NCBI RefSeq assembly: GCF_016743775.1
Contig: NZ_JAEQMY010000013.1
Span: 62,001-126,000 of the forward strand
DNA from: Microvirga aerilata
GTDB taxonomy: Bacteria > Pseudomonadota > Alphaproteobacteria > Rhizobiales > Beijerinckiaceae
DNA: 64,000 nt
Direction: 5' to 3'
This document shows, piece by piece, positions 22,444-40,375 of the stretch (position 1 is the first letter of the stretch; each line of letters begins with the position of its first letter). Made by a program: the position numbers and the translations under genes. The notes below the pieces were generated by a model, which worked only from the letters and a program-made list of their open reading frames with translations, did not search any database and was not told where the DNA came from.

Positions 22444-23265
22444 CTATGCCTCGGCGGCCAGCTCAACGAGGGTATCCACGAGTGGATCGGATGGGTCGGC
22501 GAGGCCTGCGATGACATCGAAGTGATGCGCTTGTGGAACCTCGTGGTATCGGGTTGCCACTCCAGCCTTGCCCCATTGCTCCACAATGGCGCGCGATTGG
22601 CGCAGGAACTCGCTGCTTTCTGCTCCGCCGACGACGGCAACGAGGCGGCCGTTTTCAGGTGGCTTCCACGCAAGCGGACTTAAGCGCCGGGCCTCCTCGA
22701 CCGTGAGCCCGAGAGCCTTGTTGATCGAGGTGGAGACAAGCGGGGGCAGGTCGAACAGGCCTGAGATCGGCATGGCGGTCCGGATGGGTCTCGGCAGACT
22801 GTCCGGCTGCGCCATCAGGCAGGCAGCCAGATGTCCACCCGCCGAATGGCCTGTGGCCACGAGCGGACGCCCGGACCGCTGCATGACAAAGTCGGCCGCA
22901 CGCGCGACATCGGATACGATGTTCGCGAGCGTGACGGCCGGAGCCAAGTTGTAGCTTGGAACCGCAACTGTGAGTCCCCGCTCGTTGGCGCCGCGCGCCA
23001 GATGGCTGAACGACGATTTGTCCAGGGCCTGCCAGTAGCCGCCGTGAACGAACATCACAATCGGCCCGCCGATGTCGCCGCCCTGCGGATAGAAGAAGTC
23101 GAGCCGATGGCGTTCGCCCGGTCCATAAGGCAGATCCAAATCGCAGCGCGCCGTCTCGCGGTAGGCACCTGCATCCCGCTGGGAGCCGGAAATATGAACG
23201 GCATGATCCGGTACACGCGCTCGGTTGTTATACTCCGCCTCGAAGTTCGGTTCTTCGGCTTCCAT
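22444..23265 (-). CDS. Alpha/beta hydrolase, arylformamidase (KynB)-like
   Basis: 273-residue alpha/beta hydrolase of the kynurenine formamidase-like branch: N-terminal 'EAEYNNRARVPDH', oxyanion motif HGGYW, nucleophile elbow GHSAGG, and late His in 'QAHHFDVIAGL'. Family members hydrolyse N-formylkynurenine or related aryl amides/esters. It lies 14 bp after the left livF on the same strand, so it is the last gene of the livKHMGF operon beside an anthranilate-CoA pathway; cleavage of a precursor that yields an aminobenzoate is a reasonable inference. ATG at 23265 preferred over GTG at 23268. Confidence 0.82.
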   Translation of the reverse strand: MEAEEPNFEAEYNNRARVPDHAVHISGSQRDAGAYRETARCDLDLPYGPGERHRLDFFYPQGGDIGGPIVMFVHGGYWQALDKSSFSHLARGANERGLTVAVPSYNLAPAVTLANIVSDVARAADFVMQRSGRPLVATGHSAGGHLAACLMAQPDSLPRPIRTAMPISGLFDLPPLVSTSINKALGLTVEEARRLSPLAWKPPENGRLVAVVGGAESSEFLRQSRAIVEQWGKAGVATRYHEVPQAHHFDVIAGLADPSDPLVDTLVELAAEA

Positions 23266-23279
23266 CACTTCAGCCCCTG

Positions 23280-23978
23280 TTAAACGTGCAGATACCGCTC
23301 CTTCAGACTGGAATCGGTCATGAGTTCTGCGCTCGTGCCCGTCCAGACCGAACGGCCCTTTTCGATGATCACGTGTCGGTCGGCAAAACTCGCCAGGGCG
23401 CTGACGTTCTTGTCGATCACAAGGATCGATTGGCGCTCACCCTTCAGTCTTTTCAAGCATGTCCAGATTTCTGCACGGATGAGGGGGGCCAGTCCCTCGG
23501 TTGCTTCGTCGAGGATGAGCAGCCTCGGGTTCGTCATGAGGGCGCGTCCGATTGCCAGCATCTGTTGCTCGCCGCCTGAGAGCTGCGTACCGAGATTGCT
23601 TCTGCGCTCCTTCAGGCGCGGAAACAGATCGTAGACGGCGTCCAGCGTCCACCGGCGTGAGCCCGTGCGGGCCGACGCTGTTGCGACGAGGTTTTCTTCT
23701 ACCGTCAGGGTCGGGAAGATCTGCCGGCCTTCCGGTACGAGGCCGATGCCGGTCTGCGCGATGCGATACGGCGCAAGCCCCGTGACGGCGGCTCCATTGA
23801 AGCGCACTTCGCCGCCGCGCGGCCGCAGCAGGCCCATGATGGAGCGCACAGTGGTGGTTTTTCCCATGCCGTTGCGGCCGAGCAACGTCACCACCTCACC
23901 GGCAGAAACCTCAAGGGAAATGTCGAACAGAACCTGGGCAGCGCCGTAGGAGGCTTGGAGGTGGCGGACGGACAGCAT
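23280..23978 (-). CDS. livF: Branched-chain-type ABC transporter ATPase (LivF), left importer
   Basis: 232 residues. Walker A LGRNGMGKTT, signature LSGGEQQMLAIGRAL, Walker B LLILDEATEGLAP (Ala instead of Pro after Glu). The usual H-loop reads ILVIDKNVSAL, so the switch His is replaced by Lys/Asn, a feature of some LivF-type subunits for aromatic substrates. It overlaps livG by one base and is the fifth gene of a divergent operon running from 28007. Confidence 0.9.
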   Translation of the reverse strand: MLSVRHLQASYGAAQVLFDISLEVSAGEVVTLLGRNGMGKTTTVRSIMGLLRPRGGEVRFNGAAVTGLAPYRIAQTGIGLVPEGRQIFPTLTVEENLVATASARTGSRRWTLDAVYDLFPRLKERRSNLGTQLSGGEQQMLAIGRALMTNPRLLILDEATEGLAPLIRAEIWTCLKRLKGERQSILVIDKNVSALASFADRHVIIEKGRSVWTGTSAELMTDSSLKERYLHV

Positions 23979-24733
23979 CAGACCAGCTCCTCCTCGCCCA
24001 GATAGGCGGCGCGGACCTCCGGATTGGTTCTGACCCGCTCCGGCGTATCGGTCGCGATCACGCGGCCATAGACGAGCACCGAAACACGGTCGGCAAGGGA
24101 AAAGACGGCGTCCATATCATGTTCGATGAGCACGATGGTGAGGCGGCTCTTCAAGCGCCTTAAGGTTTCCACCACCCGCTGGGACTCGTCGTGGCCGGTA
24201 CCCGCCAAAGGCTCGTCGAGCAGAAGCAGTTTCGGCTCGGTCGCAAGGCCGATGGCCAGCTCCAGCTGCCGCTTCTCGCCGTGAGACAAAAGGCCTGCCG
24301 GAACGTAAGCGCGGGGACTGAGGCCAACCAGATCCAGGCATTCCATGGCCGGCCCGTTCAGGGCCTTCTCCTGGGCGGCATTGCCGAGGAAGCGGAAGCT
24401 CGAGCCGGAGCGTGCCTGGACCGCGAGCGCGACATTCTCAAGGGCGGAGAAGCCGGGAAGGATGGACGTGATCTGGAATGATCGGGCAAGCCCGCGCCTG
24501 ACCCGTCGCGGCATTGGCAGCCGCGTGATGTCCTCGCCCCCGAACAGGACTTGGCCCGAGTCCGGGGGCAGCGTCCCTGAGATCTGATGGATGAGGGTCG
24601 TCTTGCCTGCTCCGTTGGGGCCAATGATGGCATGCAGCTCGCCGGGCTCGACGGACAGGCTCACATCGTCCGTGACAACGAGGGCGCCGTAGGCTTTCCG
24701 CACATGGCGGAGTTCGAGAAGGGGCTCAGCCAT
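23978..24733 (-). CDS. livG: Branched-chain-type ABC transporter ATPase (LivG), left importer
   Basis: 251 residues from ATG 24733 (MAEPLLELRHVRKAYG), which overlaps the livM stop by 8 bases; earlier in-frame starts lie inside livM. Walker A GPNGAGKT, signature LSHGEKRQLELAIGL, Walker B LLLLDEPLAGTG and VLIEHDMDAVF with the switch His. It energises the left importer with livF. Confidence 0.9.
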   Translation of the reverse strand: MAEPLLELRHVRKAYGALVVTDDVSLSVEPGELHAIIGPNGAGKTTLIHQISGTLPPDSGQVLFGGEDITRLPMPRRVRRGLARSFQITSILPGFSALENVALAVQARSGSSFRFLGNAAQEKALNGPAMECLDLVGLSPRAYVPAGLLSHGEKRQLELAIGLATEPKLLLLDEPLAGTGHDESQRVVETLRRLKSRLTIVLIEHDMDAVFSLADRVSVLVYGRVIATDTPERVRTNPEVRAAYLGEEELV

Positions 24734-25757
24734 GATGAGGCCTCCGCAGCAGGCCCATGATCCCGCCTCTGACGAAGAGCACCACAAGGATCAGAAGGGG
24801 GCCGAACACCATCTTCCAGTTCTCTGCAAGGTGGGATCGAGTCTCCTCGCTCAGGAAGAAGCCTGCCGCGTGCAGGATTTCCGGCAGGAATTCCTCCAGA
24901 AGCAGGAAGGCGGCCGCTCCGATAATCGCGCCGTGGAGGGAGCCCAAACCGCCGAGCACGACCATGAAGATCAGCTCGCCCGAGCGCTGCCATGTCATGA
25001 AGGCGGGGCTCACGAACTCCGCCTGATTTGCGAGCAGGCACCCCGCAAGGCCAGCCATCATGCCGCTGATCACATAGGCGACAAGCTGAAAGCGGAAGGG
25101 CTGAAAGCCCACGGCTTCCATGCGGGTGGTGTTCTCCCGCGTGCCGCGCAGAACGCGCCCGAAGCGGGAGGCCACGAGGGCTCGCGAGAATGCGTAGGTG
25201 CCGAGGAGGCAGAACAGGCAGACCCAATAGAAGGCGAAATCGTTCTCGAGGATCCCTGACCCGGCAACGAGGCTGCGGGACGATAGGGTCATGCCGTCGT
25301 CGCCGCCATAGGGCGCAAGCGAGGTGGCGAGGAAGTACAGCATCTGCCCGAAAGCAAGCGTGATCATGATAAAATAAACGCCCTTCGTCCGCAGGGATAT
25401 CGCACCTGTGGCGAGCGCGAAAACCGCCGACCCGGCAAGGGCCACGGGGATCTGGATGAGCGCATCCTCGATGCCGTGGCTCGCCAGAATGCCGACCGCG
25501 TAACCCCCAAGGCCCAGAAAGGCCGCGTGGCCGAAGCTGACGAGGGCGCCGTAGCCGAGGATCAGATCAAGCGCCATGGCGGCGATGCCGAAGATCATCA
25601 CCCGCGTGAGGAGGGACAGAACATAGCCCTCCGCGCCGGAGGACGTAGCCAGGAGAGGTGCTGCCGCAAAGGCTGCGAAGAGGACGATGGGGATCAGCTC
25701 AAGGCGCGTGGTGAGCGAGGGCGCGGGAGCGGACGGCGTTTCGGCGAGTTCGGTCAT
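24726..25757 (-). CDS. livM: Branched-chain-type ABC transporter permease (LivM), left importer
   Basis: 343 residues, about nine membrane helices. Typical LivM features: 'LDLILGYGALVSFGHAAFLGLGGYAVG' and the cytoplasmic loop RFGRVLRGTRENTTRMEAVGF. It is followed by overlapping ATPase genes and preceded by livH with 9 bp between them. Confidence 0.9.
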   Translation of the reverse strand: MTELAETPSAPAPSLTTRLELIPIVLFAAFAAAPLLATSSGAEGYVLSLLTRVMIFGIAAMALDLILGYGALVSFGHAAFLGLGGYAVGILASHGIEDALIQIPVALAGSAVFALATGAISLRTKGVYFIMITLAFGQMLYFLATSLAPYGGDDGMTLSSRSLVAGSGILENDFAFYWVCLFCLLGTYAFSRALVASRFGRVLRGTRENTTRMEAVGFQPFRFQLVAYVISGMMAGLAGCLLANQAEFVSPAFMTWQRSGELIFMVVLGGLGSLHGAIIGAAAFLLLEEFLPEILHAAGFFLSEETRSHLAENWKMVFGPLLILVVLFVRGGIMGLLRRPHHG

Positions 25758-25766
25758 GGCCGCGCC

Positions 25767-26687
25767 CTAACGTTTCACGGGAAACAAGCCGGAAGGCCGG
25801 AAGAACAGAACCGCAGCCATGAAGATATAGATCAGCATGGGGGCAATGGCCCGGCCGGTCTGGCTTGCGGCCGCGGGGTCGAGAATGAGACGCAGCAGGT
25901 TGGGCGCAAAGGAGCGGCCGACCGTATCCACCAGTCCGATCAGGAGCGCCGCCAGGAAGGCGCCGCGAATGGAGCCGATGCCGCCGATGACGATGACCAC
26001 GAAGGCGAGAATGAGGATGTTGTCACCCATACCGGGCTCGACCGACAGGATCGGCGCCACCATCGCGCCGGCAAAGCCCGCGAGCATGGCGCCGAAGCCG
26101 AACACCACCATGAACAGCCGCTGGATGTTGACGCCGAGCGCCGACACCATCGCGGCATTGCTGGCACCGGCCCGCACCAGCATGCCGACGCGGGTGTGGC
26201 TGACGAGAACATAGAGCAGGCCAGCGACCGCCAAGCCGGCCGCGATGATAGCCAGCCTGTAGACCGGGTAGAGCAGGCCGGTTGCGATCTCGACGGAGCC
26301 CGAGAAAATCTCGGGCACGGGCACGCTCAAGGGAGCGGCGCCCCACACGAACCTGACGCCCTGGTTCAGGAACAGGATGATGCCGAAGGTGGCGAGCACC
26401 TGGTCGAGGTGATCCCGGTCGTAGAGGTGCCGAAAGATCAGAAGCTCCAGAAGGAGGCCGAAAGCCAGCGCCGTGGGAAGGGCAAGGAGAAGGGCCCAGC
26501 CGAAACTTCCGGTCCAGGCGCTGAAAGCCGCCACCAGATAGGCGCCGACCATGTACTGAACGCCGTGAGCCAGGTTGATGAAATCCATCACCCCGAACAC
26601 CAGGGTCAGGCCTGCTGCGATCAAGAAGAGGATGAGCCCGAATTGAAGGCCGTTCAGGGCCTGGACGAAGAGCAGGGTCGCATTCAT
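25767..26687 (-). CDS. livH: Branched-chain-type ABC transporter permease (LivH), left importer
   Basis: 306 residues from ATG 26687 (MNATLLFVQALNGLQFG); a GTG two codons upstream is possible. Signature 'LVFGVMDFINLAHGVQYMVGAY' is the LivH consensus, and the sequence ends FFRPSGLFPVKR as in related permeases. It is separated from livK by 141 bp containing a hairpin. Confidence 0.9.
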   Translation of the reverse strand: MNATLLFVQALNGLQFGLILFLIAAGLTLVFGVMDFINLAHGVQYMVGAYLVAAFSAWTGSFGWALLLALPTALAFGLLLELLIFRHLYDRDHLDQVLATFGIILFLNQGVRFVWGAAPLSVPVPEIFSGSVEIATGLLYPVYRLAIIAAGLAVAGLLYVLVSHTRVGMLVRAGASNAAMVSALGVNIQRLFMVVFGFGAMLAGFAGAMVAPILSVEPGMGDNILILAFVVIVIGGIGSIRGAFLAALLIGLVDTVGRSFAPNLLRLILDPAAASQTGRAIAPMLIYIFMAAVLFFRPSGLFPVKR

Positions 26688-26775
26688 GGGCACGTCACTG
26701 GCAGCACGCCTGCATTGATCGAGCCTCCGCTCGGCGCCCTCCGGACGAGAGCGTAGTCGTCAATCGGTTGGATGA

Positions 26776-26816
26776 GGCTCAGTCTGTCACCGGCCGAGCG
26801 TGAGACAGACCGAGCC
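26776..26816 (-). terminator. Hairpin between left livK and livH
   Basis: GGCTC-A-GTCTGTC (26776-26788) pairs with GACAGAC-C-GAGCC (26804-26816) with a single A-C mismatch and a 15-base loop. No U-tract on the minus strand. Like the hairpins after urtA and oppA, it probably tunes binding-protein versus permease levels. Confidence 0.5.
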
Positions 26817-26828
26817 ACGCGAACAGGC

Positions 26829-28007
26829 TTAGTTCGTTGCCGTGCATTCCTTGGCATAGGCATCCGTGTAGTCGTCGAACACCTTTTCGGCGATCTCCGT
26901 CTGGAGCTTGCCGTCGGAACGCTTGGCGGCCTTTACCAGGTAGAAGTCCTGGACCGGGAAGCCGTTTGCACCGAACTTGAAGTCGCCGCGCAGGGACTTG
27001 AACTCGGCCTTCTTGATTGCAGCCCGCACAGCTTCCTTGTCATCGGTCTTTCCGCCGGTTGCCTTGAGGGCGGCGTCGATCAGCAGGGCCGCATCATAGG
27101 CATGCATGGCGTAGGATGCCGGAACCGCATTGTAGGCGGCCTCGTAGGCTGCAACGAACTTCTTGTTCTCCGGGGTATCCATGTTGGGCGCCCAGTTCGA
27201 TCCGCTGAGCATGCCGATGGCCGCGTCCTGCTGCGCGGGCAGGTTCGTCTCGTCTACCGTAAAGGCGGAGAGGAATGGGATGCGATCGGCAAGGCCTGCC
27301 GCGCGATATTGCTTGACCAGGTTCACGCCCATGCCGCCCGGCATGAAGGTGAACATCGCATCCGGCTGCATGGAGGCGATCTTGGCGAGCTCGGACTGGA
27401 AGTCGAGCGTGTTCAAGGGAGTGTAGGACTCCTCCACGATCTCGCCCTTGTAGTGGCGCTTGAAGCCGGCGAGCGCATCCTTGCCGGCCTGATAGTTCGG
27501 CGCGAGCAGATAGACTTTCTTGTAGCCGCGATCCTGCGCCACCTTGCCGAGAACCTCATGGTTCTGGTCGTTCTGGTAGGAGGTTGCGAAGAAATAGGGA
27601 TTGCAGCTCTTGCCGGCGAGGTTGGAGGGGCCGGCGTTCACGCTGATGTAGAAGGTCTTCGCATCGACGATCGGCTTGTGGGTGGCGACCGCCACGTTCG
27701 AGAAGATCGGCCCGACGACGAAGTCGACCTTGTCGCGCTCCAGGAGGCCCTTGACCTTGGTCACAGCCACATCCGGTTTCAGTTCGTCATCGACGACGAT
27801 CACCTCGACGTCGCGTCCACCGAGCTTGCCGCCGAGATCCTTGACGGCGAGCTGAAAGCCGTCCCGGGCATGCTGGCCGAGCACGGCCGAGGGGCCGGAA
27901 AGGGTCAGGAGCAGGCCGACCTTCAGCTTCTCCTGCGCCAGGGCTGGCGCCGCAGCCAGGCCAAAGGCCGCCGCAAGGCCGAGGGTTTTGATCGTTGCAT
28001 TCATCAT
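26829..28007 (-). CDS. livK: ABC transporter substrate-binding protein (LivK-like), left importer
   Basis: 392 residues with a cleavable signal (ATIKTLGLAAAFGLAAAPALAQ) and a type I periplasmic binding fold beginning EKLKVGLLLTLSGPSAVLG. GGGAGACC precedes ATGATG at 28007. Members in this branch bind amino acids, amides or aromatic acids; the divergent aryl-CoA ligase suggests an aromatic substrate such as an aminobenzoate, but the pocket cannot be read from sequence. First gene of livKHMGF-hydrolase. Confidence 0.88.
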   Translation of the reverse strand: MMNATIKTLGLAAAFGLAAAPALAQEKLKVGLLLTLSGPSAVLGQHARDGFQLAVKDLGGKLGGRDVEVIVVDDELKPDVAVTKVKGLLERDKVDFVVGPIFSNVAVATHKPIVDAKTFYISVNAGPSNLAGKSCNPYFFATSYQNDQNHEVLGKVAQDRGYKKVYLLAPNYQAGKDALAGFKRHYKGEIVEESYTPLNTLDFQSELAKIASMQPDAMFTFMPGGMGVNLVKQYRAAGLADRIPFLSAFTVDETNLPAQQDAAIGMLSGSNWAPNMDTPENKKFVAAYEAAYNAVPASYAMHAYDAALLIDAALKATGGKTDDKEAVRAAIKKAEFKSLRGDFKFGANGFPVQDFYLVKAAKRSDGKLQTEIAEKVFDDYTDAYAKECTATN

Positions 28008-28185
28008 GGTCTCCCGAGTGGCTGTTCCCTGCGCACTTTGCCGTGCTGCGTGATTGTTCCTGGCGGGACTTGAGGCGCCTCGCCGGGAAAGGCGGCATAC
28101 TCTGCCGCAAAAAAATTCTGCCGAATACTCCCTTTGTTGGAGCTTGCCCGGCGGCGTCCCCAATCTTTGGGATTGCCAAGGATTG

Positions 28186-28205
28186 TTTTAAGATTAAAAT
28201 ATTTT
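28186..28205. promoter_or_regulatory. Putative MarR operator 1 (livK / CoA-ligase divergent region)
   Basis: TTTTAA-GA-TTAAAA (28186-28199) is a perfect 6-bp inverted repeat, followed by TATTTTC. A near-identical element, with the same following bases, occurs at 30027 before the monooxygenase gene. The element lies in the 327-bp divergent region 28008-28334, which carries no gene. A MarR protein is encoded in the same cluster (33214). Confidence 0.65.
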
Positions 28206-28334
28206 CCAGGTTCTTCAAGCGGAATGTTTCGCAGGGGAAAACAGGCGGAACGACAGGCGCGTGACCGGCGAAATCCAGGCCGGGATGCACGACGCGGAGT
28301 TCTTTTGCTGAACCAAAGAACAGAGGAGCGGACG

Positions 28335-29996
28335 ATGGCGGACACGGCTCATGTGGATAGCTTCGCAAGGGATAACCTGCCGCCCCAGGATCAATGGCCG
28401 GCTTTCCTGTTCACGCGCCCGGAGCTGCAGTATCCCGAACGCCTCAACTGCGCCGTGGCGTTTCTCGACCGGTGGGTTGATGAGGGAAGGGGCGATGAGC
28501 CCTGCCTGATCAGCCCGGCCGAGACGCTCACCTACCGCGAGCTCCAGGATCGCGTGAATCGAATCTGCAATGTGCTGGTTCACAAGCTTGGTTTCGTGCC
28601 CGGCAATCGCGTTCTTCTGCGCTCCGCCAACAATCCCATGATGGTGGCCGCTTACCTGGCGGTGCTGAAGGCCGGCGGCGTGGTCGTCGCCACCATGCCT
28701 CTGCTGCGTGCCAGGGAAATCGCGTATCCCCTGACGAAGGCAAAGATCACGATTGCGCTTTGCGATCACCGTCTGGCCGAGGAACTGGAGCGCGCGAAGG
28801 CAATAGCGCCGGATCTGCGGCATGTGGTGTACTGGGGATCGGGCAAGCCCAACAGTCTGGAGGCACTGATCGCCGAAGCCTCGCCGGAATTCGCAGCCGT
28901 CGACACGGCGGCAGACGATGTCTGCCTCATCGGCTTTACCTCGGGCACGACAGGCGAGCCGAAAGGCACCATGCATTTTCACCGTGACATGCTGGCGATC
29001 TGCGATGCCTATGCGGGGAATGTGCTGCGGCCCGAGGCGAGCGATCGCTTCATCGGCTCGCCGCCCCTGGCCTTCACCTTCGGCCTCGGCGGGATCGTGC
29101 TGTTTCCCATGAGGGTCGGCGCCTCAACCGTTCTGCTGGAGAAGGCCGGCCCCGACGATCTTCTGCCGGCGATCATGCAGTACAAGGCCACGGTCTGCTT
29201 CACGGCGCCGACGGCCTACAGGGCGATGCTGGCGAAGCTCGACGGTTACGACATCTCGAGCTTGCGCAAATGCGTCTCGGCCGGCGAGCCCCTGCCGAAG
29301 GGCACATTCGAGGCTTGGAAGGCCGCCACGAACATCAAGCTCATGGATGGCATCGGCGCAACCGAGATGCTGCACATCTTCATCGCCGCACGGGAGGACG
29401 AGATCCGGCCCGGTGCCACGGGCAAGCCCGTTCCGGGTTATGAGGCGCGGGTGGTGGACGATGAGGGGCGGACCCTGCCTCCCGGCAGCATCGGCCGCTT
29501 GGCGGTCCGCGGGCCGACCGGGTGCCGCTACCTGGCCGATGAGCGGCAGCGCAAATATGTGGAAGATGGCTGGAATATCACCGGTGATACCTACCTCATG
29601 GATGAGGAAGGATATTTCTGGTACCAGGCCCGCTCCGACGACATGATCATCTCCTCGGGCTACAACATCGCCGGCCCCGAGGTGGAGGCGGCGCTCCTGA
29701 CCCACCCGGCCGTCGCGGAATGCGGGGTGGTCGGGGCTCCCGACGACGAACGGGGCGCGGTCGTCAAGGCCTATGTGGTCCTGCGCCCGGGCCATGAGCC
29801 GGGCACGGAGCTGACGAAGGCTCTTCAGGACCATGTGAAGGCGGAGATCGCTCCCTATAAATATCCGCGCATCATCGAATATGCCGATGCCCTGCCGCGC
29901 ACCCAGACCGGCAAGCTCCAGCGGTTTGCGCTGCGCCGCATCGCCCAGGAGGAGCGGAGCCAAGCGGGCGCGGCCGGGGTCCGGGAGGCGGTTTGA
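28335..29996 (+). CDS. Aryl-CoA ligase (2-aminobenzoate/benzoate-CoA ligase family)
   Basis: 553-residue adenylate-forming enzyme that would activate an aromatic acid to its CoA thioester with ATP. Motifs: P-loop FTSGTTGEPKGTMH, 'LMDGIGATEMLHIF', hinge 'ARSDDMIISSGYNIAGPEVE' and the C-terminal catalytic Lys in RTQTGKLQR. The GATEMLHIF segment and overall architecture match benzoate/2-aminobenzoate-CoA ligases. AGAGGAGCG precedes the ATG. The following gene strongly favours 2-aminobenzoate (or salicylate) over benzoate as substrate. Regulated from the shared operator at 28186. Confidence 0.88.
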   Translation: MADTAHVDSFARDNLPPQDQWPAFLFTRPELQYPERLNCAVAFLDRWVDEGRGDEPCLISPAETLTYRELQDRVNRICNVLVHKLGFVPGNRVLLRSANNPMMVAAYLAVLKAGGVVVATMPLLRAREIAYPLTKAKITIALCDHRLAEELERAKAIAPDLRHVVYWGSGKPNSLEALIAEASPEFAAVDTAADDVCLIGFTSGTTGEPKGTMHFHRDMLAICDAYAGNVLRPEASDRFIGSPPLAFTFGLGGIVLFPMRVGASTVLLEKAGPDDLLPAIMQYKATVCFTAPTAYRAMLAKLDGYDISSLRKCVSAGEPLPKGTFEAWKAATNIKLMDGIGATEMLHIFIAAREDEIRPGATGKPVPGYEARVVDDEGRTLPPGSIGRLAVRGPTGCRYLADERQRKYVEDGWNITGDTYLMDEEGYFWYQARSDDMIISSGYNIAGPEVEAALLTHPAVAECGVVGAPDDERGAVVKAYVVLRPGHEPGTELTKALQDHVKAEIAPYKYPRIIEYADALPRTQTGKLQRFALRRIAQEERSQAGAAGVREAV

Positions 29997-30026
29997 CCGC
30001 GGTCGTACGGCTTGAACAAAAATTAC

Positions 30027-30045
30027 TTTAAGCTTAAAATATATT
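30027..30045. promoter_or_regulatory. Putative MarR operator 2 (before the monooxygenase gene)
   Basis: TTTAAGCTTAAA (30027-30038) is a perfect palindrome and is followed by ATATATTC. Aligned with the element at 28186 it reads TTTAAG-A/C-TTAAAATAT-T/A-TTC, one difference in the palindrome and one in the flank. It lies 31 bp after the ligase stop and about 50 bp before the next start, so the second half of the cluster has its own regulated promoter. Confidence 0.65.
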
Positions 30046-30088
30046 CATCCAGCCTCTCAGGGAGGCAGGCCTCTCAGGTAAGGTAGTC

Positions 30089-32443
30089 ATGAAAACGGCG
30101 ATCATCGGCGGCGGCCCTGCGGGACTCTATTTCGCGATCCTGCTGAAGAAGCTCAGGCCCGAATCGGACATCACGGTCTATGAGCGCAACCGCGCCGACG
30201 ACACGTTCGGCTTCGGTGTCGTGTTCTCCGATGCGACCCTGGACAATTTCGAGAAATACGACCTCCCGAGCTATCAGCGGATCACGCGCGAGTTCGCCTA
30301 TTGGGACGACATCGCGATCCATTTCAGGGGAACGGAGCACCGGATCGGCGGCAACGGATTCTGCGGCTGCTCGCGCCGGACGCTGCTCATGATTCTCCAG
30401 GACCGGGCGGAGGAACTCGGCGTCCGGCTGCGCTACGACGTCGATGTGGACGACGAGAGCCTGTTTGCCGATGCCGACCTCGTGGTCGTGGCCGACGGCA
30501 TCAACAGCCGCTTCCGGGACCGCTATGCGGAGCACTTCCAGCCGGAGGTGGATCTGCGCCCCAACAAGTTCGCCTGGATGGGTTCCACCAAGCCGCTCGA
30601 CGCCTTCACGTTCATCTTCCAGGAAACCGAGTGGGGGCCGTTCATCGCCCATGCCTACCAGTATGAGGCGAACCGCTCCACCTGGGTGTTCGAGACGGAT
30701 CCGGAAACCTTCGAGCGGGCGGGGCTGAACCACAAGAGCGAGGCCGAGTCGGCAGCGCTCATGGAGGGGATCTTCGGCTGGTTCCTCGGCGGGCATCGCA
30801 TCCTCACCAACCGCTCGATCTGGCGCAACTTCCCGATGATCCGGAGCAAGCGCTGGGTGATGGGCAACAAGGTGCTCCTGGGCGACGCCAAGGCCTCGGC
30901 GCATTTCTCCATCGGCTCCGGCACGAAGCTCGCCATGGAGGATGCCATCGCGCTCTACGAGGCCATCCGCCGCGATGGGACGGTCGAGGGCGCGTTGTCC
31001 CTCTACGAGACCGGACGGCGCGAGGAGGTGGAGAAGACCCAGCATGCGGCGGACGTGTCGCTCGTGTGGTTCGAGCACGTGGCCCGCTTCTGGGACTTCG
31101 ACCCGGTGCAGTTCGCCTTCGGCGTCATGACCCGCGCCAAGGCCATCACGTACGACAACCTGCGCCTGCGCGCGCCCGACTTCGTGGCTGCGGTGGACCG
31201 CACCTTCGCCCGTCAGGTGAGACAGCAGGGGTTCGACGTCTCAGTCGAGATCCCGAGCGCGCCCATGTTCCAGCCCTTCCGCCTGCGGGAAATGGAGATC
31301 GCCAATCGGGTCGTGGTGTCGCCGATGGACATGTACTCGGCCAAGGACGGGGTGCCGAACGATTTCCATCTCGTCCATTACGGCGCGCGCGCCACCGGCG
31401 GAGCCGGGCTGGTTTTCACCGAGATGACATGCGTGTCGCCGGAGGCCCGCATCACCCTGGGCTGCACCGGCCTGTGGAACGACGAGCAGGAGGCCGCCTG
31501 GAAGCGGATCGTCAGTTTCATTCATGCCAATTCGGGCTCGAAGTTCTGCCTGCAGCTCGGCCATTCCGGCCGAAAGGGCGCCACCAAGCTGATGTGGGAG
31601 GGCATCGACCGGCCCCTGGAGGAGGGCGCCTGGGACATCTGCTCCGCCTCGCCCATCCCGTACTTCCCCGACAGCAAGGTTCCGCGCGAGGCAACGCGCG
31701 AGGATATGGAGCTGATCAAGGCGCAGTTCGTCGATGCGGCCAAGCGCGGCGAGCGCGCCGGCTTCGACATGCTCGAACTGCACTGCGCCCACGGCTACCT
31801 GCTTGCGAGCTTCATTTCCCCGCTCACGAACCGGCGCACGGACCAGTATGGCGGCTCGCTTGAGAACCGGCTGCGGTTTCCGCTGGAGGTGTTTGACGCC
31901 ATGCGCGAGGCCTGGCCCGCGCACAAGCCCATGTCGGTGCGCATCTCCGCGACCGACTGGGCCGAAGGCGGCATCACCGGCGAAGAGGCGGTGGAGATCG
32001 CGCGCGCCTTTGCGGAGCACGGGGTCGATCTCGTCGACGTGTCGACCGGGCAGACCGTGCGGGAGGCGCGGCCGATCTACGGGCGCATGTTCCAGACGCC
32101 GTTCTCGGACCAGGTGCGCAACGAAGCGCGGGTCGCCACCATGTGCGTCGGAAACATCACGGCGGCCGATCAGGTGAACACGATCCTTGCCGCGGGCCGT
32201 GCCGATCTCGTGGCGCTCGGACGCCCGCATCTGGTCGATCCGTTCTTCACCATGAAGGCCGCGGCCTGGTATGGGGCGAAGGATATTCACTGCCCGCCGC
32301 AATATCTCGCCGGCAAGGACCAGATCTTCCGCAACGCGGTGCGCGACCGGCAGGATCTCGAAGACCTCAAGGTGAAGGCCAAGCCCAAGACCCGGGCCGA
32401 GCTGAAGATGGAGGCCGGCGAGAAGCCTCTCGCGGCGGAATGA
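30089..32443 (+). CDS. Bifunctional anthraniloyl-CoA monooxygenase/reductase (salicylyl-CoA 5-hydroxylase type)
   Basis: 784-residue two-domain flavoenzyme. Residues 1-385 are a class A FAD monooxygenase (GGGPAG at 7-12, '[25 protein letters not shown]' FAD loop). From about 390 ([20 protein letters not shown]) to 760 is an old-yellow-enzyme NADH:flavin oxidoreductase with '[10 protein letters not shown]', '[19 protein letters not shown]' and '[12 protein letters not shown]'. This architecture is specific to 2-aminobenzoyl-CoA monooxygenase/reductase of the Azoarcus route and to salicylyl-CoA 5-hydroxylase. It hydroxylates and then reduces the ring of the CoA ester. AGGTAAGGT precedes the start. 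Confidence 0.92.
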
Positions 32444-32444
32444 C

Positions 32445-33212
32445 ATGACCATGACAACTCTCAAGGGGCGGCACGCGCTGGTCACGGGCGGCGGCCGGGG
32501 CATCGGGCGGGCCGTCGCGGCGCGTCTGGTAGAGGCGGGCGCGACCGTCACGGTCCTCGGGCGCAGTCCTGCAAGCCTGGAACAGGCCATCGTGGAGGGT
32601 GACGCCCATGCGGCCGCCGTGGCCGACGTCACGGATCATCGTGCCGTGCAGGCGGCCGTTCAGGAGGCTGTCGGCCGGTATGGGCCTATCGACCTGATGG
32701 TTGCCAATGCGGGAGCCGCCGCCTCGGCGCCCTTCATGAAATCCGGGCCCGAGGTCTTCCGGCAGATGCTGGACGTGAATCTCCTCGGCGTCACCAACAT
32801 GGCGCAGGCCGTGCTGGGCTCCATGACGGAGCGGGGGTTCGGACGCATCGTCGCCGTGGCCTCGACCGCAGGGCTCAAGGGCTATCCCTATGTGAGCGCC
32901 TATTGCGCCGCCAAGCATGCGGTCATCGGCTTCACGCGCGCCCTGGCCCTGGAGACGGCAAAGACCGGCGTCACCGTCAATGCGGTCTGCCCGGGTTTCA
33001 CGGATACCGACCTTGTGGCAGAGAGCCTCGAACGGATCATGGCCAAGACGGGCCGAACGCGCGACGAGGCGCTGGGCGAACTCGTGAAGCACAACCCGCA
33101 GGGACGGCTCATCGACCCGTCGGAGATTGCGGACGCGGTGCTCTGGCTCTGTGGCGAGGGAGCGCGCTCGGTGACGGGCCAGGCCATCGTGGTGGCCGGT
33201 GGAGAAATTTAG
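32445..33212 (+). CDS. SDR-family dehydrogenase (3-hydroxyacyl-CoA dehydrogenase-like)
   Basis: 255-residue short-chain dehydrogenase beginning one base after the monooxygenase stop. Rossmann motif TGGGRGIG, NAG in 'MVANAGAAASAPF', catalytic Ser in AVASTAGLKG and YCAAK (Tyr-x-x-x-Lys). Probably oxidises a hydroxyacyl-CoA intermediate of the alicyclic ring degradation. Its 3' end runs up to the MarR gene. Confidence 0.88.
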   Translation: MTMTTLKGRHALVTGGGRGIGRAVAARLVEAGATVTVLGRSPASLEQAIVEGDAHAAAVADVTDHRAVQAAVQEAVGRYGPIDLMVANAGAAASAPFMKSGPEVFRQMLDVNLLGVTNMAQAVLGSMTERGFGRIVAVASTAGLKGYPYVSAYCAAKHAVIGFTRALALETAKTGVTVNAVCPGFTDTDLVAESLERIMAKTGRTRDEALGELVKHNPQGRLIDPSEIADAVLWLCGEGARSVTGQAIVVAGGEI

Positions 33213-33213
33213 G

Positions 33214-33723
33214 ATGGACGACCAGAGCATTCCGCTCGACGCCGAGACGAAGGCCGTCGAGATGCCGGAGGATCACCGGGAGGAGCTGCGCCTCTGGCTG
33301 CGGCTTCTCACCTGCTCCACCCTGATCGAAGGGGAGGTGCGCCGCCGCCTGCGGGAGCGCTTCGACGTCACGCTGCCCCGGTTCGACCTGATGGCCCAGC
33401 TCGACAAGGCCCCGGAGGGCATGACCCTGTCGGACCTGTCCAAGCGCATGATGGTGTCGAACGGCAATCTCACCGGGCTCGTCGACCGTCTCGTCACCTC
33501 CGGCCATGTGGACCGCTCCGTGTCGCCCCTGGACCGGCGGGCGATGGTGATCAGGCTGACGGAGAGCGGCCGCGCCGAGTTTCGCGCCATCGCGGCGGAG
33601 CATGAGCTCTGGATCGCCGACCTGTTCAGCGATCTCACGAGCAAGGACCGGGCCGACCTCATGCGCCTTCTCGGCAAGACCAAGCTTTCGGCACGCAACA
33701 CCATCATGGGAGAAGGCCAGTGA
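33214..33723 (+). CDS. MarR-family transcriptional regulator
   Basis: 169-residue winged-helix regulator; helix-turn-helix around '[30 protein letters not shown]' and wing '[20 protein letters not shown]'. Start ATG 33214 has GGAG nine bases upstream; a GTG at 33199 would overlap the SDR gene. It sits inside the catabolic operon, so it is probably autoregulated, and MarR proteins in aryl-CoA pathways usually release DNA on binding the CoA thioester. Candidate sites are the palindromes at 28186 and 30027. Confidence 0.92.
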
Positions 33724-34556
33724 GGCAGTTCGCCAATTCCGTCACGCTGCCGCTGCAGGGCTATGAGCCGCAGCACTTCCGTCTGTCGGTGGAGGGGCCT
33801 GTTGCGACGGTGACCCTCAATCGCCCGGAGAAGAAGAACCCGCTCACCTTCGAAAGCTACCGCGAGCTGACGGACTTCTTCCACGCCTGCGCCAAGGACG
33901 ACGCCGTCAAGGCCATCGTCATCGTGGGCGCCGGGGGCAACTTCTCGTCGGGCGGCGACGTGTTCGAGATCATCGGCCCCCTGGTGGAGATGGACACGAA
34001 GGGCCTGACCGCCTTCACCCGCATGACGGGCGAGCTGGTGAAGGCCATGCGGGCCGCGCCGCAGCCGATCGTGGCCGCCGTCGAAGGCATCTGCGCGGGC
34101 GCGGGCGCCATCATCGCCATGGCGTCCGACATCCGCCTTGCGGCACCCGGCGCCAAGGTGGCGTTCCTGTTCAACAAGGTCGGCCTGGCGGGCTGCGATA
34201 TGGGCGCCTGCGCCATTCTCCCGCGCATCATCGGCCAGGGCCGCGCCTCGGAGCTGCTCTACACCGGACGCTTCATGAGCGCCGAGGAGGGCGAGCGATG
34301 GGGCTTCTTCAGCCGCCTCGTCGGAGCCGGCGAGCTGCTGGCGGAAGCCGGAACCCTGGCGCAGGCGATCGGCACCGGACCCACCTATGCCAACACCATG
34401 ACGAAGCGCATGCTCGCGATGGAATGGGCCATGTCGGTCGAGGAGGCCATCGAGGCCGAGGCCGTGGCGCAGGCCCTGTGCATGACCACGGAGGATTTCG
34501 CCCGGGCCTACCGGGCATTCGCGGCCAAAGAGAAGCCGGTATTCCAGGGAGATTGA
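33720..34556 (+). CDS. Crotonase-family (enoyl-CoA hydratase/isomerase) protein, atypical active site
   Basis: 278 residues starting at GTG 33720, overlapping the MarR stop (GTGA). Crotonase fold with oxyanion-hole segments '[14 protein letters not shown]' and '[19 protein letters not shown]'. By alignment to rat enoyl-CoA hydratase, the two catalytic glutamates (144 and 164) are replaced (Ile131 and a hydrophobic residue near 150), while Asp160 is present in '[13 protein letters not shown]'. It is therefore unlikely to be a plain hydratase; a role in ring hydration or hydrolytic cleavage in this pathway is inferred. Confidence 0.88.
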
Positions 34557-34557
34557 C

Positions 34558-35754
34558 GTGATCGACGCGAGTTTCCTCTCCTGGCCCTTCTTCGAGGAAA
34601 GGCACCGGCAGTTCGCCCATGGTCTGCGTGAATGGGCGGCCTCGTCGGTCAAGCCCCTCGTCGATCATCACGACGTGGATGAATCCTGCCGCCGCCTCGT
34701 GCGGTCCTTGGGAGAAGGCGGGTGGCTCAAGGCCGTGGTGCCGCAGGCCTATGGCGGCCTCACGTCGGCCTTCGACGTGCGCACCCTGTGCCTTGCGCGC
34801 GAGACGCTGGCTTTCCAGGACGGGTTGGCGGATTTCGCCTTCGCCATGCAGGGCCTCGGCACGGGGCCGATCACCCTGTTCGGGTCCGACGCGATGAAGG
34901 CGCAGTATCTGCCGCCAGTCGCGCGCGGCGAAGCCATCGCGGCCTTCGCGCTCTCCGAGCCGGAGGCGGGTTCGGACGTTGCCGCCATGAGCACCACGGC
35001 GGTGCCGGACGGGCCGGACCACGTGAGAATCGACGGGGTGAAGACCTGGATCTCCAATGGCGGGATCGCGGATCACTACGTGGTGTTCGCGCGCTCGGGC
35101 GAAGCCCCCGGCGCGAAGGGATTGTCGGCCTATGTGGTGGATGCCGAAACGCCGGGCCTGAGCGTTGAGAACCGCATCGACGTGATCGCGCCTCATCCGC
35201 TTGCAACCTTGCGCTTCGAGGGCTGCCGCGTGCCGCTGGCACAGCGCATCGGCGGGCCGGGGGAGGGATTCAAGGTTGCCATGGCGACCCTCGACGTCTT
35301 TCGCTCGACCGTGGGGGCAGCCGCGCTCGGCCTTGCCCGGCGCGCACTCTCGGAGGCCTTGCGGCATGCATCCTCACGCAAGCTCTTCGGAGCGCCCCTT
35401 GGCGAGCTGCAGATGACGCAGGCCGCCTTGGCCGACATGGCAACCGGCGTGGACAGCTCCGCGCTCCTCGTCTATCGCGCCGCCTGGACCAAGGATCAGG
35501 GCGCGGCGCGGGTGACCCGTGAGGCCGCCATGGCCAAGATGAATGCGACGGAATCCGCCCAAGGGGTGATCGACAAGGCTGTGCAGATCTTCGGGGGACT
35601 TGGCGTCACCAAGGGCGTGAAGGTCGAGGAGCTCTATCGAGAGATCCGGGCCCTGCGCATCTATGAGGGAGCCACCGAGGTCCAGAAGATCGTGATCGCG
35701 CGCGAACTCCTGAAGATGCACGAGGCCCGTCAGCGAACGGAGGAACAGCAATGA
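34558..35754 (+). CDS. Acyl-CoA dehydrogenase
   Basis: 398-residue FAD enzyme, GTG start one base after the preceding stop. Features: '[19 protein letters not shown]', '[19 protein letters not shown]', '[22 protein letters not shown]' and the catalytic-base region '[20 protein letters not shown]' with Glu in the usual EGATE position. It would dehydrogenate a saturated ring- or chain-acyl-CoA in the lower part of the pathway. Its stop overlaps the next ATG. Confidence 0.91.
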
Positions 35755-36194
35755 CAGCCGCTCTAGGGGGCACGCCCATGCCCGGTCTCGACGACGGGCC
35801 TGAAGTGCTCAATCCGAAGCATTGGCCCGTCCCCAAGGGCTATGCCAACGGCATGATGGGCGAGGGCAGGGTTCTTGTCACCGGCGGGATCGTCGGCTGG
35901 GATGAGACGGGCGCTTTCGCCGACGGCTTCGTGGCGCAGGCCCGCCAGGTTCTCGAGAACATTCGGGCCATTCTGGCGGAGGGGGGAGCCGAGCCCCGGC
36001 ACCTCGTGCGCCTGACCTGGTACGTGGTCGATATCGAGGAGTACTTGGCCAATCTGCGCGAGTTGGGCCGCGCCTACCGGGAGGTGTTCGGCACCCATTA
36101 TCCGGCGATGGCGCTCGTTCAGGTGGTGCGCCTCGTGGAGAAGGCCGCCCGGCTCGAGATCGAGGCGACTGCCATCGTTCCAGCCGCGCGGTAG
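35751..36194 (+). CDS. RidA/YjgF/UK114-family protein lacking the catalytic Arg
   Basis: 147-residue Rid-superfamily protein, last gene of the catabolic operon. The family core is clear ([41 protein letters not shown]). RidA imine deaminases have Arg105 in a 'PAR' motif; here it reads YPAMALVQV with Met120, so this is a Rid4-7-type member and may not be an imine deaminase. Its context suggests a role on an enamine/imine or acyl intermediate of aminobenzoate breakdown. Confidence 0.88.
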
Positions 36195-36204
36195 AGGCAT
36201 CTCC

Positions 36205-36672
36205 TCAAACACCGATCTCGACGATTTCGGCGGTGGTCTGCCCGACAGGCACCACATCGCCGACCTCCTTGCCCATGAGGGCCTGCGCCAGGGGCGAGAC
36301 GTAGGACAGGCTGCCCTTGGCCGGATCGGCCTCGTCCTCGCCGACGATCCGGTAGGATTGCCGGCGTCCGTCCTCGCGCTCGAAGGTCACGCGGGCACCG
36401 AAGCGCACATGGGCCGTGTCCGTGGGCGGCGGCACGACCTCCGCCGAGACCCGGCGGGCGGACCAGTAGCGCAGGTCGCGGGAAAGGCGCGCCACCTCGG
36501 CCTTGTCGCCTGCGGCCTGGGCGTCGGTCAGGCGCTGCTGCAGGGTCTCGATGGCCGCGTCCATCTGGGCGAGGCCCTCGGGCGTGACGAGATGGTGCGG
36601 GCTGATCGCCCGGTCGGGCAGGTCTTCGAAGGCCTCTCCGCCTTCGGCTTCGCGAACAAAGGCACGGCTCAT
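36205..36672 (-). CDS. GreA/GreB-family transcription elongation factor
   Basis: 155 residues: an N-terminal coiled-coil ('LVTPEGLAQMDAAIETLQQRLTDAQ ...') and a C-terminal FKBP-like domain ending 'YVSPLAQALMGKEVGDVVPV', typical of Gre factors. Members rescue backtracked RNA polymerase by stimulating transcript cleavage, though shorter relatives may only bind polymerase. The tip of the coiled coil has an Asp/Glu pair near 'GDKAEVARL'. Convergent with the Rid gene. Confidence 0.85.
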   Translation of the reverse strand: MSRAFVREAEGGEAFEDLPDRAISPHHLVTPEGLAQMDAAIETLQQRLTDAQAAGDKAEVARLSRDLRYWSARRVSAEVVPPPTDTAHVRFGARVTFEREDGRRQSYRIVGEDEADPAKGSLSYVSPLAQALMGKEVGDVVPVGQTTAEIVEIGV

Positions 36673-36735: not shown

Positions 36736-37854
36736 CTATTGCCTGGCTTGCCGCAGGCGGCCGACGATGCCGCCCGGAAAGGCATAGACGCTGATGATGA
36801 ACAGGGCGCCGAGCCAGAGGAGCCAGCGGTCCGGATGGATCAGGTTGGGAAGAAGCGGGATCCCGGCCAGCGCCGCGCTTCCGGCGCCCATCAGCACCTG
36901 GAGATAGCTTTGCGCGAGGACGAAGAGGGCCGCGCCGATCACGGCCCCGTACATGGTGCCCATGCCGCCAATCACCACCATGAGCAGGATGTCGATCATG
37001 ATCGAGAAGGACAGCGTCGTGTCCGGCCCGTTGTAGCGCAGCCAGAGCGCCATGAGGGCGCCGGCGATGGTGGCGGCGAGCGCCGAGATCACGGAGGCGG
37101 CCGTGCGGTAGGCCACCACCCGGTAGCCCAAGGCCTCGGCCCTGAACTCGTTCTCGCGGATCGCCTGCAGGACGCGCCCAAAGGGCGAGTTCACGATGCG
37201 CAGCAGCCCTAAGAAGACGAGCAGCGAGACGAAGAAGACCAGATAATAGGCCAGCAGGCGGCCGTTGACGGCGGTGCCGAAAACCGGCTCGGACAGGAGC
37301 CGGAAGGCCGGGCGAAGCGCCTGCGGCAGCTGGAACGACAGCCCGTCCTCGCCGCCCGTGACGTTTGACAGCTGCGAGGCCAGAACGGCCGCGGCGGACG
37401 CCACCGCAAGGGTGATCATGGAAAAGAAGATCGCCCGAACCCTCAAGGACAGGAGCCCGATGGCAACGGCCAGAAAGGCCGACAGCGCCAGGGCCGCCGC
37501 CAATCCGATCAGCACCGAGCCCCAGGTCGCTCCCAGGCGCTCGAGGGCGATGGCGATGCCGTAGCCGCCGATGCCGAAGAACATGGTGTGGGCAAAGGAC
37601 ACGATGCCCGAATAGCCGAGCAGCAGGTCGTAGCTCGCCACCAGGACGATGAACACGCAGATCTTCGCCGCCGTGCTCACCGGCTGGCTGCCGGAGAACA
37701 GGAACGGCGTGGCGGCCAGCAGCAGCAGGATCCCGAGCAGGATGACCGTGAGGGCCTTGGAGCGCGGCAGATCCGAGGACAGCACCCGGCTCATGATCCC
37801 GCCACGGCGGCGGGTCTCGTCGAAGGGAAGGGCGAGGGCAGGGGATGAGCTCAT
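36736..37854 (-). CDS. livM: Branched-chain-type ABC transporter permease (LivM), right importer
   Basis: 372 residues from the ATG at 37854 (MSSSPALALPFDETRRR), overlapping the upstream livH stop. LivM features: 'YDLLLGYSGIVSFAHTMFFGIGGYG' and the loop FGRVLQAIRENEFRAEALGYR. A much longer open frame continues upstream but reads livH out of frame. Last gene of the right importer operon. Confidence 0.9.
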   Translation of the reverse strand: MSSSPALALPFDETRRRGGIMSRVLSSDLPRSKALTVILLGILLLLAATPFLFSGSQPVSTAAKICVFIVLVASYDLLLGYSGIVSFAHTMFFGIGGYGIAIALERLGATWGSVLIGLAAALALSAFLAVAIGLLSLRVRAIFFSMITLAVASAAAVLASQLSNVTGGEDGLSFQLPQALRPAFRLLSEPVFGTAVNGRLLAYYLVFFVSLLVFLGLLRIVNSPFGRVLQAIRENEFRAEALGYRVVAYRTAASVISALAATIAGALMALWLRYNGPDTTLSFSIMIDILLMVVIGGMGTMYGAVIGAALFVLAQSYLQVLMGAGSAALAGIPLLPNLIHPDRWLLWLGALFIISVYAFPGGIVGRLRQARQ

Positions 37855-38873
37855 CGACGGGCTACCGGAAAGAGGCCTTGGGGACGCCAGATCAGCACGA
37901 GGGCCATGACGAGGATGTTGGAGATCAGCGCCAGCTTGGGCTCGATGAAGCCCACATAGTTGGCGACAAGCGCCACCAGGATGGAGCCGACGAAGCAGCC
38001 GCCGACCGAGCCGAGGCCGCCGATGATGATCACGATGAACACCAGCACCATCACCTCCATGCCCATGCCGGCGGTGAGCGTCTGGCGGTAGAAGGCCCAC
38101 ATGACGCCCCCTAGGCCCGCAAGCGCGGAGCCCGCCACGAACACGCTGACGAAGAGGCGGCGGATGCGGTAGCCCAGCGCCTCGACCATCTCCGGGTTCT
38201 CGACGCCGGCCCGGATCAGGAGGCCGATCCGGGTGCGGTTGAGCAGGAGCTGCATGCCGATGAACACCACGAGCCCGATGGCGACGGCGACCACGCGGTA
38301 GCGCTCCATGACGATGTCGCCGAGCACGAAGGCGCCGCGCAGGGATTGCGGCAGCGGGATCGGGATGGGCGAGGCGCCCCAAATGGCGTGGATCGCCTGC
38401 TCGGCCACGATCAGGCCGCCCATGGTGACCAGGATCTGCTTCAGGTGGCTGCCATAGACCGGGCGCACGATCACCCGCTCGAACACCGCGCCCACCACCC
38501 CCGTGACCGCCATGGCGGCCAGGATGCACAGCGCCAGCAGGGCCAGGTTCAGCCCAAGGGAATCCGCCTGCGCCCAGCCGGACAGGGGACCGAGGACGAT
38601 GAGGGTGGCGTAGGCTCCGAGCGAGATGAACACCCCATGCCCGAAGTTGATGATGTCCATCAGGCCGAACACCAGGGTGAGCCCCGAGGCCATGAGAAAA
38701 ATCATCATGCCCATGGCAAGGCCCGCCACGGTGAGCGTGACCCAGGTCGAGGGGCTGCCGACGAAGGGCAGCGTCAGCAGGCCAAGGGCCGGGATCAGCA
38801 GAAGGGGGAGCCAATCGGTTTTCGCACGCGGCAGTTCGTCCGGCGCGGTGGATGGGGCAGCCATGTCACTCAT
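37851..38873 (-). CDS. livH: Branched-chain-type ABC transporter permease (LivH), right importer
   Basis: 340 residues from ATG 38873 (MSDMAAPSTAPDELPR), whose start overlaps the livF stop by four bases. Signature 'LVFGLMDIINFGHGVFISLGAY', loop 'NPEMVEALGYRIRRLF' and C-terminus LIWRPQGLFPVARR. The N-terminal extension of about 30 residues before the first helix is hydrophilic. Confidence 0.9.
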   Translation of the reverse strand: MSDMAAPSTAPDELPRAKTDWLPLLLIPALGLLTLPFVGSPSTWVTLTVAGLAMGMMIFLMASGLTLVFGLMDIINFGHGVFISLGAYATLIVLGPLSGWAQADSLGLNLALLALCILAAMAVTGVVGAVFERVIVRPVYGSHLKQILVTMGGLIVAEQAIHAIWGASPIPIPLPQSLRGAFVLGDIVMERYRVVAVAIGLVVFIGMQLLLNRTRIGLLIRAGVENPEMVEALGYRIRRLFVSVFVAGSALAGLGGVMWAFYRQTLTAGMGMEVMVLVFIVIIIGGLGSVGGCFVGSILVALVANYVGFIEPKLALISNILVMALVLIWRPQGLFPVARR

Positions 38874-40367: not shown

Positions 40368-40375
40368 AGGTCTGC

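Follow-up and report, generated by a model that had tools for sequence, protein, structure and literature searches.

The 64 kb window analyzed here, that is, the whole stretch of 64,000 nucleotides, is part of contig C44 of the 6.83 Mb draft genome of Microvirga aerilata (genome G000). It carries a liv-type importer operon that ends in a gene for an alpha/beta hydrolase, termed HYD below, and that is divergent from a cluster predicted to serve the coenzyme A (CoA)-dependent degradation of an aminobenzoate. From the gene content and order, conservation, co-occurrence, family membership and predicted fold observed, we infer that HYD is quite probably an N-formylkynurenine formamidase linking tryptophan to anthraniloyl-CoA, encoded with the lower half of the tryptophan/kynurenine route.

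In the proposed pathway, the tryptophan dioxygenase encoded by kynA on contig C66 would make N-formylkynurenine, from which HYD of the liv operon would cleave formate to give kynurenine. The product of kynU2, a divergent kynureninase gene beside kynA, would convert kynurenine to anthranilate and alanine. The ligase would then form anthraniloyl-CoA, and the 2-aminobenzoyl-CoA monooxygenase/reductase (ABMR), the dehydrogenases, the hydratase and the RidA protein would degrade it by the aerobic 2-aminobenzoyl-CoA pathway. The locus would comprise the lower half of the tryptophan/kynurenine route plus one upper-pathway enzyme, and the placement of HYD in the importer operon would fit a pathway whose lower half switches as a unit. 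The pathway itself is known; the mix of enzymes and their layout make this an unusual variant.

An earlier reading made from the sequence only had described livK-H-M-G-F followed by a hydrolase gene 14 bp further on, divergent from the ligase gene. The frame listing and family searches of the window found every gene to be an open frame at its coordinates; the livF-HYD gap is 14 bp from the HYD ATG (23265) and 11 bp from the upstream GTG. The features are as follows.

22444..23268, minus strand: HYD, alpha/beta hydrolase, proposed N-formylkynurenine formamidase; start ATG 23265 or GTG 23268; Abhydrolase_3 / BD-FAE
23280..23978, minus strand: livF-type ATPase; ABC_tran
23978..24733, minus strand: livG-type ATPase; ABC_tran and BCA_ABC_TP_C; start placed at an internal ATG, with the frame open to 24787
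24726..25757, minus strand: livM-type permease; BPD_transp_2
25767..26693, minus strand: livH-type permease; BPD_transp_2
26829..28007, minus strand: livK-type periplasmic binding protein; Peripla_BP_6; top solved relatives 4evq, 4zpj, 4ey3 and 4evs
28182..28206, no strand: palindromic operator-like site, core TTTTAAGATTAAAA at 28186-28199, between the two divergent operons; in 13/13 aligned gaps
28335..29996, plus strand: 2-aminobenzoate (anthranilate)-CoA ligase; benzoate-CoA ligase family over cut-off; top solved match 4wv3
30022..30046, no strand: second copy of the operator-like palindrome, ahead of ABMR; matrix score 40.7, from training on other gaps
30089..32443, plus strand: ABMR, two-domain flavoprotein; FAD_binding_3 and Oxidored_FMN; NF006101 over cut-off
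32445..33212, plus strand: short-chain dehydrogenase; adh_short
33199..33723, plus strand: MarR-type regulator, candidate palindrome binder; MarR
33720..34556, plus strand: enoyl-CoA hydratase; NF006107 over cut-off
34558..35754, plus strand: acyl-CoA dehydrogenase; acyl-CoA dehydrogenase models, under their cut-offs
35751..36194, plus strand: RidA-type enamine/imine deaminase; Rid family models, under their cut-offs

Family and fold of the hydrolase

In NCBIfam, HYD matched the hormone-sensitive-lipase family below its cut-off. An alignment of 36 sequences revealed HGGYW, G140, S142, A143-G145 and H249 as invariant, which gives a motif set of an HGGXW oxyanion motif, a GxSxG nucleophile motif and a catalytic His. 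The best solved relatives by sequence were 2pbl, 9n8r and the fly kynurenine formamidase, in that order. The predicted model of HYD, with a predicted local distance difference test score (pLDDT) of 96, gave a fold ranking of 2pbl (Z 37.8) and 9n8r (Z 36.3), followed by the kynurenine formamidase structures 4e15, 4e14 and 4e11 (Z 30.3-30.7), with other esterases coming after these at Z ≤25.9. The fly enzyme is therefore the closest solved enzyme with formamidase activity, behind only 2pbl and 9n8r. HYD shares with the animal and yeast alpha/beta-hydrolase kynurenine formamidases the HGGYW and GxSxG motifs, the His and the overall fold, and members of its family lie beside kynA and kynU; it differs in being bacterial and only 24-26% identical to the fly enzyme.

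The accessible text of PMC4243253 describes the bacterial kynurenine formamidase as a zinc enzyme, KynB, unrelated to the alpha/beta-hydrolase type. KynB (TIGR03035) was considered as the G000 formamidase and rejected, with no match at E ≤ 0.001.

The genes divergent from the importer operon form an abm-type set in one cluster, with a CoA ligase, a two-domain protein of the flavin adenine dinucleotide monooxygenase/OYE type and beta-oxidation-type genes. Compared with solved structures, the ligase matched the anthranilate-CoA ligase 4wv3 at 360 bits, and the runner-up, a benzoate-CoA ligase, at 276. The model NF006101, matched by ABMR, is named at NCBI 'bifunctional salicylyl-CoA 5-hydroxylase/oxidoreductase'; the ligase match and the kynurenine link favor an aminobenzoate over salicylyl-CoA as the presumptive ABMR substrate.

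Association with kynA, kynU2 and the aminobenzoate cluster

Within a sample of 48 genomes of the same genus, searched for HYD at E ≤ 1e-20, HYD and ABMR were found in exactly the same 42. Forty of these 42 have kynA over cut-off together with a HYD-family gene, and in 38 the HYD-family gene is on the strand opposite to ABMR, at a distance of 6.7-7.2 kb. G232 and G234 hold the two genes on different contigs. G201 and G215 have neither kynA over cut-off nor HYD near ABMR, HYD being on another contig in the former and 45 kb away in the latter. The association of kynA with HYD near ABMR has a Fisher p of 0.0012 uncorrected for kinship, which is only a guide because genomes of one genus are related.

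A neighborhood search in related genomes, which the sequence-only reading had suggested as a check, found the gene order of the window in 10 of the 12 same-genus loci read in detail. The Microvirga arvi locus, which extends to the short-chain dehydrogenase, has an identical order throughout, and the proteins are 77-96% identical. The order is not due to chance, since it recurs in M. arvi, in these 10 of 12 loci and, by position, in 38 of 42 genomes. In five of the 10 loci (L214-L217 and L242; 5/40 genomes) a distant family member, 33-38% identical, takes the place after livF, so that the HYD slot is kept. G219 has livK-H-M-G-F-HYD-kynA-kynU2 on one strand, divergent from the whole CoA cluster; its HYD is 71% identical to that of the window, and the matches to HYD and kynA are 72 bp apart. 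The hydrolase had been called formamidase-like and assigned to aminobenzoate activation from the window sequence. Both proposals are supported, by the fly enzyme as the closest solved structure of that activity, by relatives beside kynA and kynU and by the G219 orthologue followed by kynA.

KynA is over cut-off in 42 of the 48 same-genus genomes and kynU2 is present in 43, the extra one being G215, whose kynA is a divergent relative under cut-off. In all 43, kynU2 comes directly after kynA on the same strand. The apparent absence of a kynureninase had at first been counted against a kynurenine role: the kynureninase model TIGR01814 had no match in any of the 48 genomes at E ≤ 1e-20 or in G000 at E ≤ 0.001, and KynU2 stays under it at 19.5 bits versus a cut-off of 246.4. 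This objection was dropped once the gene following kynA was seen to contain KYNU_C. In G000, kynU2 (C66:6554-7744, locus L192) directly follows kynA, its product has the domains Aminotran_5 and KYNU_C (the latter at 44.1 bits versus a cut-off of 27), and its best solved match by sequence is the kynureninase 1qz9. A predicted model (pLDDT 77) ranked 1qz9 at the top with Z 33.5, level with cysteine desulfurases, and by Foldseek E-value desulfurases led with 1qz9 eighth; because the two enzyme types tie, the fold alone decides nothing.

In a sample of 199 genomes of the order, kynU2 was found in seven, each time beside kynA or a divergent kynA-like gene. None of the seven has TIGR01814 over cut-off, with weak matches in G098 (48.5 bits) and G089 (18.4 bits, on KynU2 itself). 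G101 carries the kynA-kynU2 pair inside its liv-ligase-ABMR cluster. Of the two plasmid records opened, from 12 with a kynU2 match, one lacks annotation; the homologue on a Streptomyces plasmid (36% identical), annotated as kynureninase, comes after tryptophan dioxygenase. By context and domain, KynU2 is a divergent kynureninase, with its activity predicted on that basis. At several loci (L133/L237, L234, L235, L236, L238 and L239) kynU2 is preceded by a divergent kynA-like protein that is 30-33% identical to kynA references.

The order sample was searched for the HYD family at E ≤ 1e-20 and for ABMR at E ≤ 1e-120. Among the matches listed, the family occurs in 104 genomes and ABMR in 61, G000 being counted in both, and the numbers of family members per genome are likewise to be taken as at least those listed. 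Leaving G000 aside, 60 ABMR genomes remain, and in 11 of these a family member lies less than 20 kb from ABMR, against about 0.8 expected if genomes of 5 Mb and an even spread are assumed, and nine of the 11 have kynA at ≥389 bits. Genomes were counted as having kynA at ≥322 bits, which gave 38; eight with only weaker or split kynA-like matches (E ≤ 0.001) were not counted. Among the matches listed, a family member is within 10 kb of kynA in 16 of the 38, versus about 0.24 expected on the same assumptions, in a table from which G000's own HYD is absent, and 37 of the 38 have a member somewhere in the genome. KynB is over cut-off in 9/199 genomes. Seven of the 38 have KynB over cut-off as well; among the matches listed, none of these seven has a family member at ≤10 kb from kynA.

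Named plasmid records with a HYD match numbered 296, and kynA was near the hydrolase in all three that were opened. The Deinococcus radiodurans plasmid has kynU-kynA-hydrolase in overlapping order, and the Ensifer and Aminobacter plasmids have liv-kynA-ligase facing the hydrolase. Members of the hydrolase family adjoin kynA in both Alphaproteobacteria and Deinococcus.

Phylogeny and alternative explanations

Three HYD trees were built by short searches, with support from the Shimodaira-Hasegawa-like approximate likelihood ratio test (SH-aLRT) only; the first omits five rows by length and two duplicates, and the later two also omit 20 far-branch loci. A kynurenine-linked clade, mostly of Alphaproteobacteria, has 39 rows in two trees (SH-aLRT 100 in the first) and 41 in the third. 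Members linked to kynA fall in at least three separate branches, namely this large clade, a Deinococcus/Mycobacterium branch and the genus of the window. Additional members linked to ABMR, ligase or liv genes occur elsewhere in the tree (L111, L046, L076, L145 and the L118/L148/L152 branch). Membership of the window HYD in the large clade was ruled out by all three trees. Since HYD stands outside that clade and several branches are linked, formamidase activity would be either old in the family or recruited repeatedly; recruitment to the kynurenine role was probably repeated. A 717-residue frame in L111 that seemed to be a hydrolase-binding protein fusion was discarded as a false long frame.

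Other members of the group that contains the window HYD have different neighbors. In L180, L188, L201 and L203 the hydrolase gene is divergent from a thiM-type gene and near a tripartite ATP-independent periplasmic (TRAP) transporter binding protein, the thiM-type call resting on a test for Hydroxyethylthiazole kinase in L180 and on clustering in the other three. Judged from motifs, genes near the hydrolase in L188, L201 and L203 presumably resemble thiE/thiD, and the members near the thiM-type gene are possibly deformylases of thiamine salvage. In L173, L176, L178 and L187 they adjoin squalene/phytoene-synthase (hopanoid-type) genes, identified by Pfam in L178 and by clustering in the others.

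Several observations weigh against HYD as a formamidase of the tryptophan route. Among solved structures, 2pbl, a putative thioesterase, and 9n8r, a lipase, are closer to HYD than any kynurenine formamidase. In all three trees HYD and its genus stand apart from the clade holding most kynurenine-linked members, and 40 of the 44 rows around it in the first tree sit in other settings, such as hopanoid or thiamine-salvage genes. Only one of 35 close HYD orthologues (G219) adjoins kynA, and G225 and G233 carry the kynA-kynU2 pair yet gave no hydrolase match at E ≤ 1e-20. Across the order, 15 of the 31 KynB-less kynA genomes, G000 included, lack a listed family member at ≤10 kb from kynA; G117 and G071 have a member within 20 kb of ABMR and no kynA match; and G116 has KynB plus a family member within its liv-ABMR cluster. 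The family is also wider than the pathway, with a member in 67 of the 161 order genomes outside the 38. Lastly, a scan of G000 found no palindrome of the window's type ahead of kynA, the best matrix score being 2.3.

According to the sequence-only reading, what is imported is a masked precursor of N-formyl, amide or ester type (N-formylkynurenine, N-formylanthranilate, anthranilamide or an anthranilate ester), and HYD releases the aminobenzoate from it after uptake. Kynurenine, which that reading gave as an example, is the likely source. Import of a masked precursor is not specifically supported, because G000 can make N-formylkynurenine itself with the kynA-kynU2 pair on C66 and because, of the 14 order ABMR loci that have four or more liv genes, nine have no hydrolase in the stretch fetched and five do. 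In five of those nine genomes (G041, G081, G146, G173 and G195), all of which have KynB, the contig with ABMR also carries a hydrolase, 30-34 kb away from it. The hydrolase does adjoin importer genes in several separate tree lineages (the window genus, L055, L058, L065, L073, L111, L148 and L152), but within the genus it tracks kynA more than the importer: G201 keeps liv genes and ABMR, is devoid of kynA and kynU2, and has no hydrolase on the contig concerned. We regard masked-precursor import as unlikely.

Still less probable is a role for HYD within the CoA pathway as esterase or thioesterase, clearing stalled CoA esters, for instance, or cleaving anthranilate esters. The labels of the nearest solved relatives, thioesterase and lipase, are in its favor, as is the resemblance of kynurenine formamidases to carboxylesterases, with esterase activity in some, given in the accessible part of PMC5171882. 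It leaves unexplained the family members beside kynA, their absence near kynA in the seven KynB genomes and the kynA neighbor in G219. That HYD is a passenger of the importer operon, unconnected with the pathway, would agree with the unrelated settings of most of its close relatives outside the genus; this is very improbable given that a family member is kept, along with kynA, in 40 of 42 ABMR genomes and that a distant member occupies the same spot in five.

A broader interpretation, offered tentatively and with the balance somewhat against it, is that the genus combines two non-standard enzymes of the kynurenine route, an animal-type serine formamidase sited in the operon of an aromatic importer and a divergent kynureninase, that separate family branches have taken the formamidase post several times, and that importer, formamidase and CoA pathway may form one unit scavenging kynurenine, N-formylkynurenine and anthranilate from plants and soil. 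If true, this would give a function to bacterial proteins now labeled only 'alpha/beta hydrolase' or lipase. The zinc enzyme KynB would also not be the rule, as found in 9/199 genomes compared with a family hydrolase within 10 kb in 16 of the 38 kynA genomes.

Operator-like palindromes, importer and related systems

A block with a near-palindrome was found in all 13 livK/ligase gaps aligned, and a weight matrix was built on these 13 gaps, the window's own included. With this matrix the training site at 28182-28206 scored 43.8, and the site at 30022-30046, in the ligase/ABMR gap and outside the training set, scored 40.7. Opposite-strand readings of the two palindromes scored 26.2 and 35.4; elsewhere in the 64 kb no score exceeded -6.7. 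A second copy in the ligase/ABMR gap was present in the three other same-genus cluster loci scanned (L213, L214 and L228). The shared putative operator previously noted between the divergent operons is thus real as a conserved sequence. The MarR-type protein is probably a repressor that, on the two palindromes, switches both divergent operons together. An operator ahead of kynA was rejected: of 10 same-genus kynA loci scanned, one (L223) has a weak palindrome match just upstream of kynA, and its score of 7.9, like the 2.3 of G000, compares with 43.8 and 40.7 in the window.

The liv-type importer is complete, with two permeases, two ATPases and one binding protein. Of the solved relatives of the latter (4evq, 4zpj, 4ey3 and 4evs), we take several to bind benzoate-type acids. 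The importer accompanies ABMR also where no hydrolase is nearby, and its cargo is therefore most likely an aromatic of the route, namely anthranilate, kynurenine or both. At ≥40% identity, the 60 ABMR loci retrieved from the order sample, some of which are cut by contig ends, showed the ligase in 44, the short-chain dehydrogenase in 51, MarR in 51, the enoyl-CoA hydratase in 47, the acyl-CoA dehydrogenase in 43 and the RidA protein in 48. In L113, L114 and L115 a lone livK-like gene (71-73% identical) is near ABMR; the 19.5 kb retrieved contain no match to a permease or an ATPase.

The sequence-only reading knew of no described system with exactly this layout, and none was found in the literature searched, a body of partly accessible texts outside which most subscription papers fell; the layout does recur within the genus. 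The abm pathway of Azoarcus evansii, known here from the accessible text of reviews, likewise groups a ligase, a two-domain monooxygenase/reductase and beta-oxidation-type genes (PMC4539516, PMC8388817). To this set the window adds a liv importer, a formamidase-like hydrolase and a RidA protein. The Ensifer and Aminobacter plasmid clusters also bring an importer, a ligase and a hydrolase together in about 9 kb and carry kynA. Their hydrolase, however, belongs to the other clade and is divergent from ligase-kynA-liv, whereas HYD of the window closes the liv operon. The annotation of the plasmid stretches shown includes no ABMR. The N-acetylanthranilate amidase of Arthrobacter Rue61a, described in the accessible part of PMC3534580, acts on a derivative of anthranilate and has the alpha/beta-hydrolase fold, and its host strain produces anthraniloyl-CoA. 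The amidase differs in belonging to a quinaldine pathway, and its likeness to HYD is by description only. Presumably the amidase feeds the anthraniloyl-CoA route.

Beyond the RidA gene, the window has a GreA/GreB-type gene at 36205-36672, followed at 36736-41566 on the minus strand by a second liv-type ATP-binding cassette (ABC) importer with its own binding protein.

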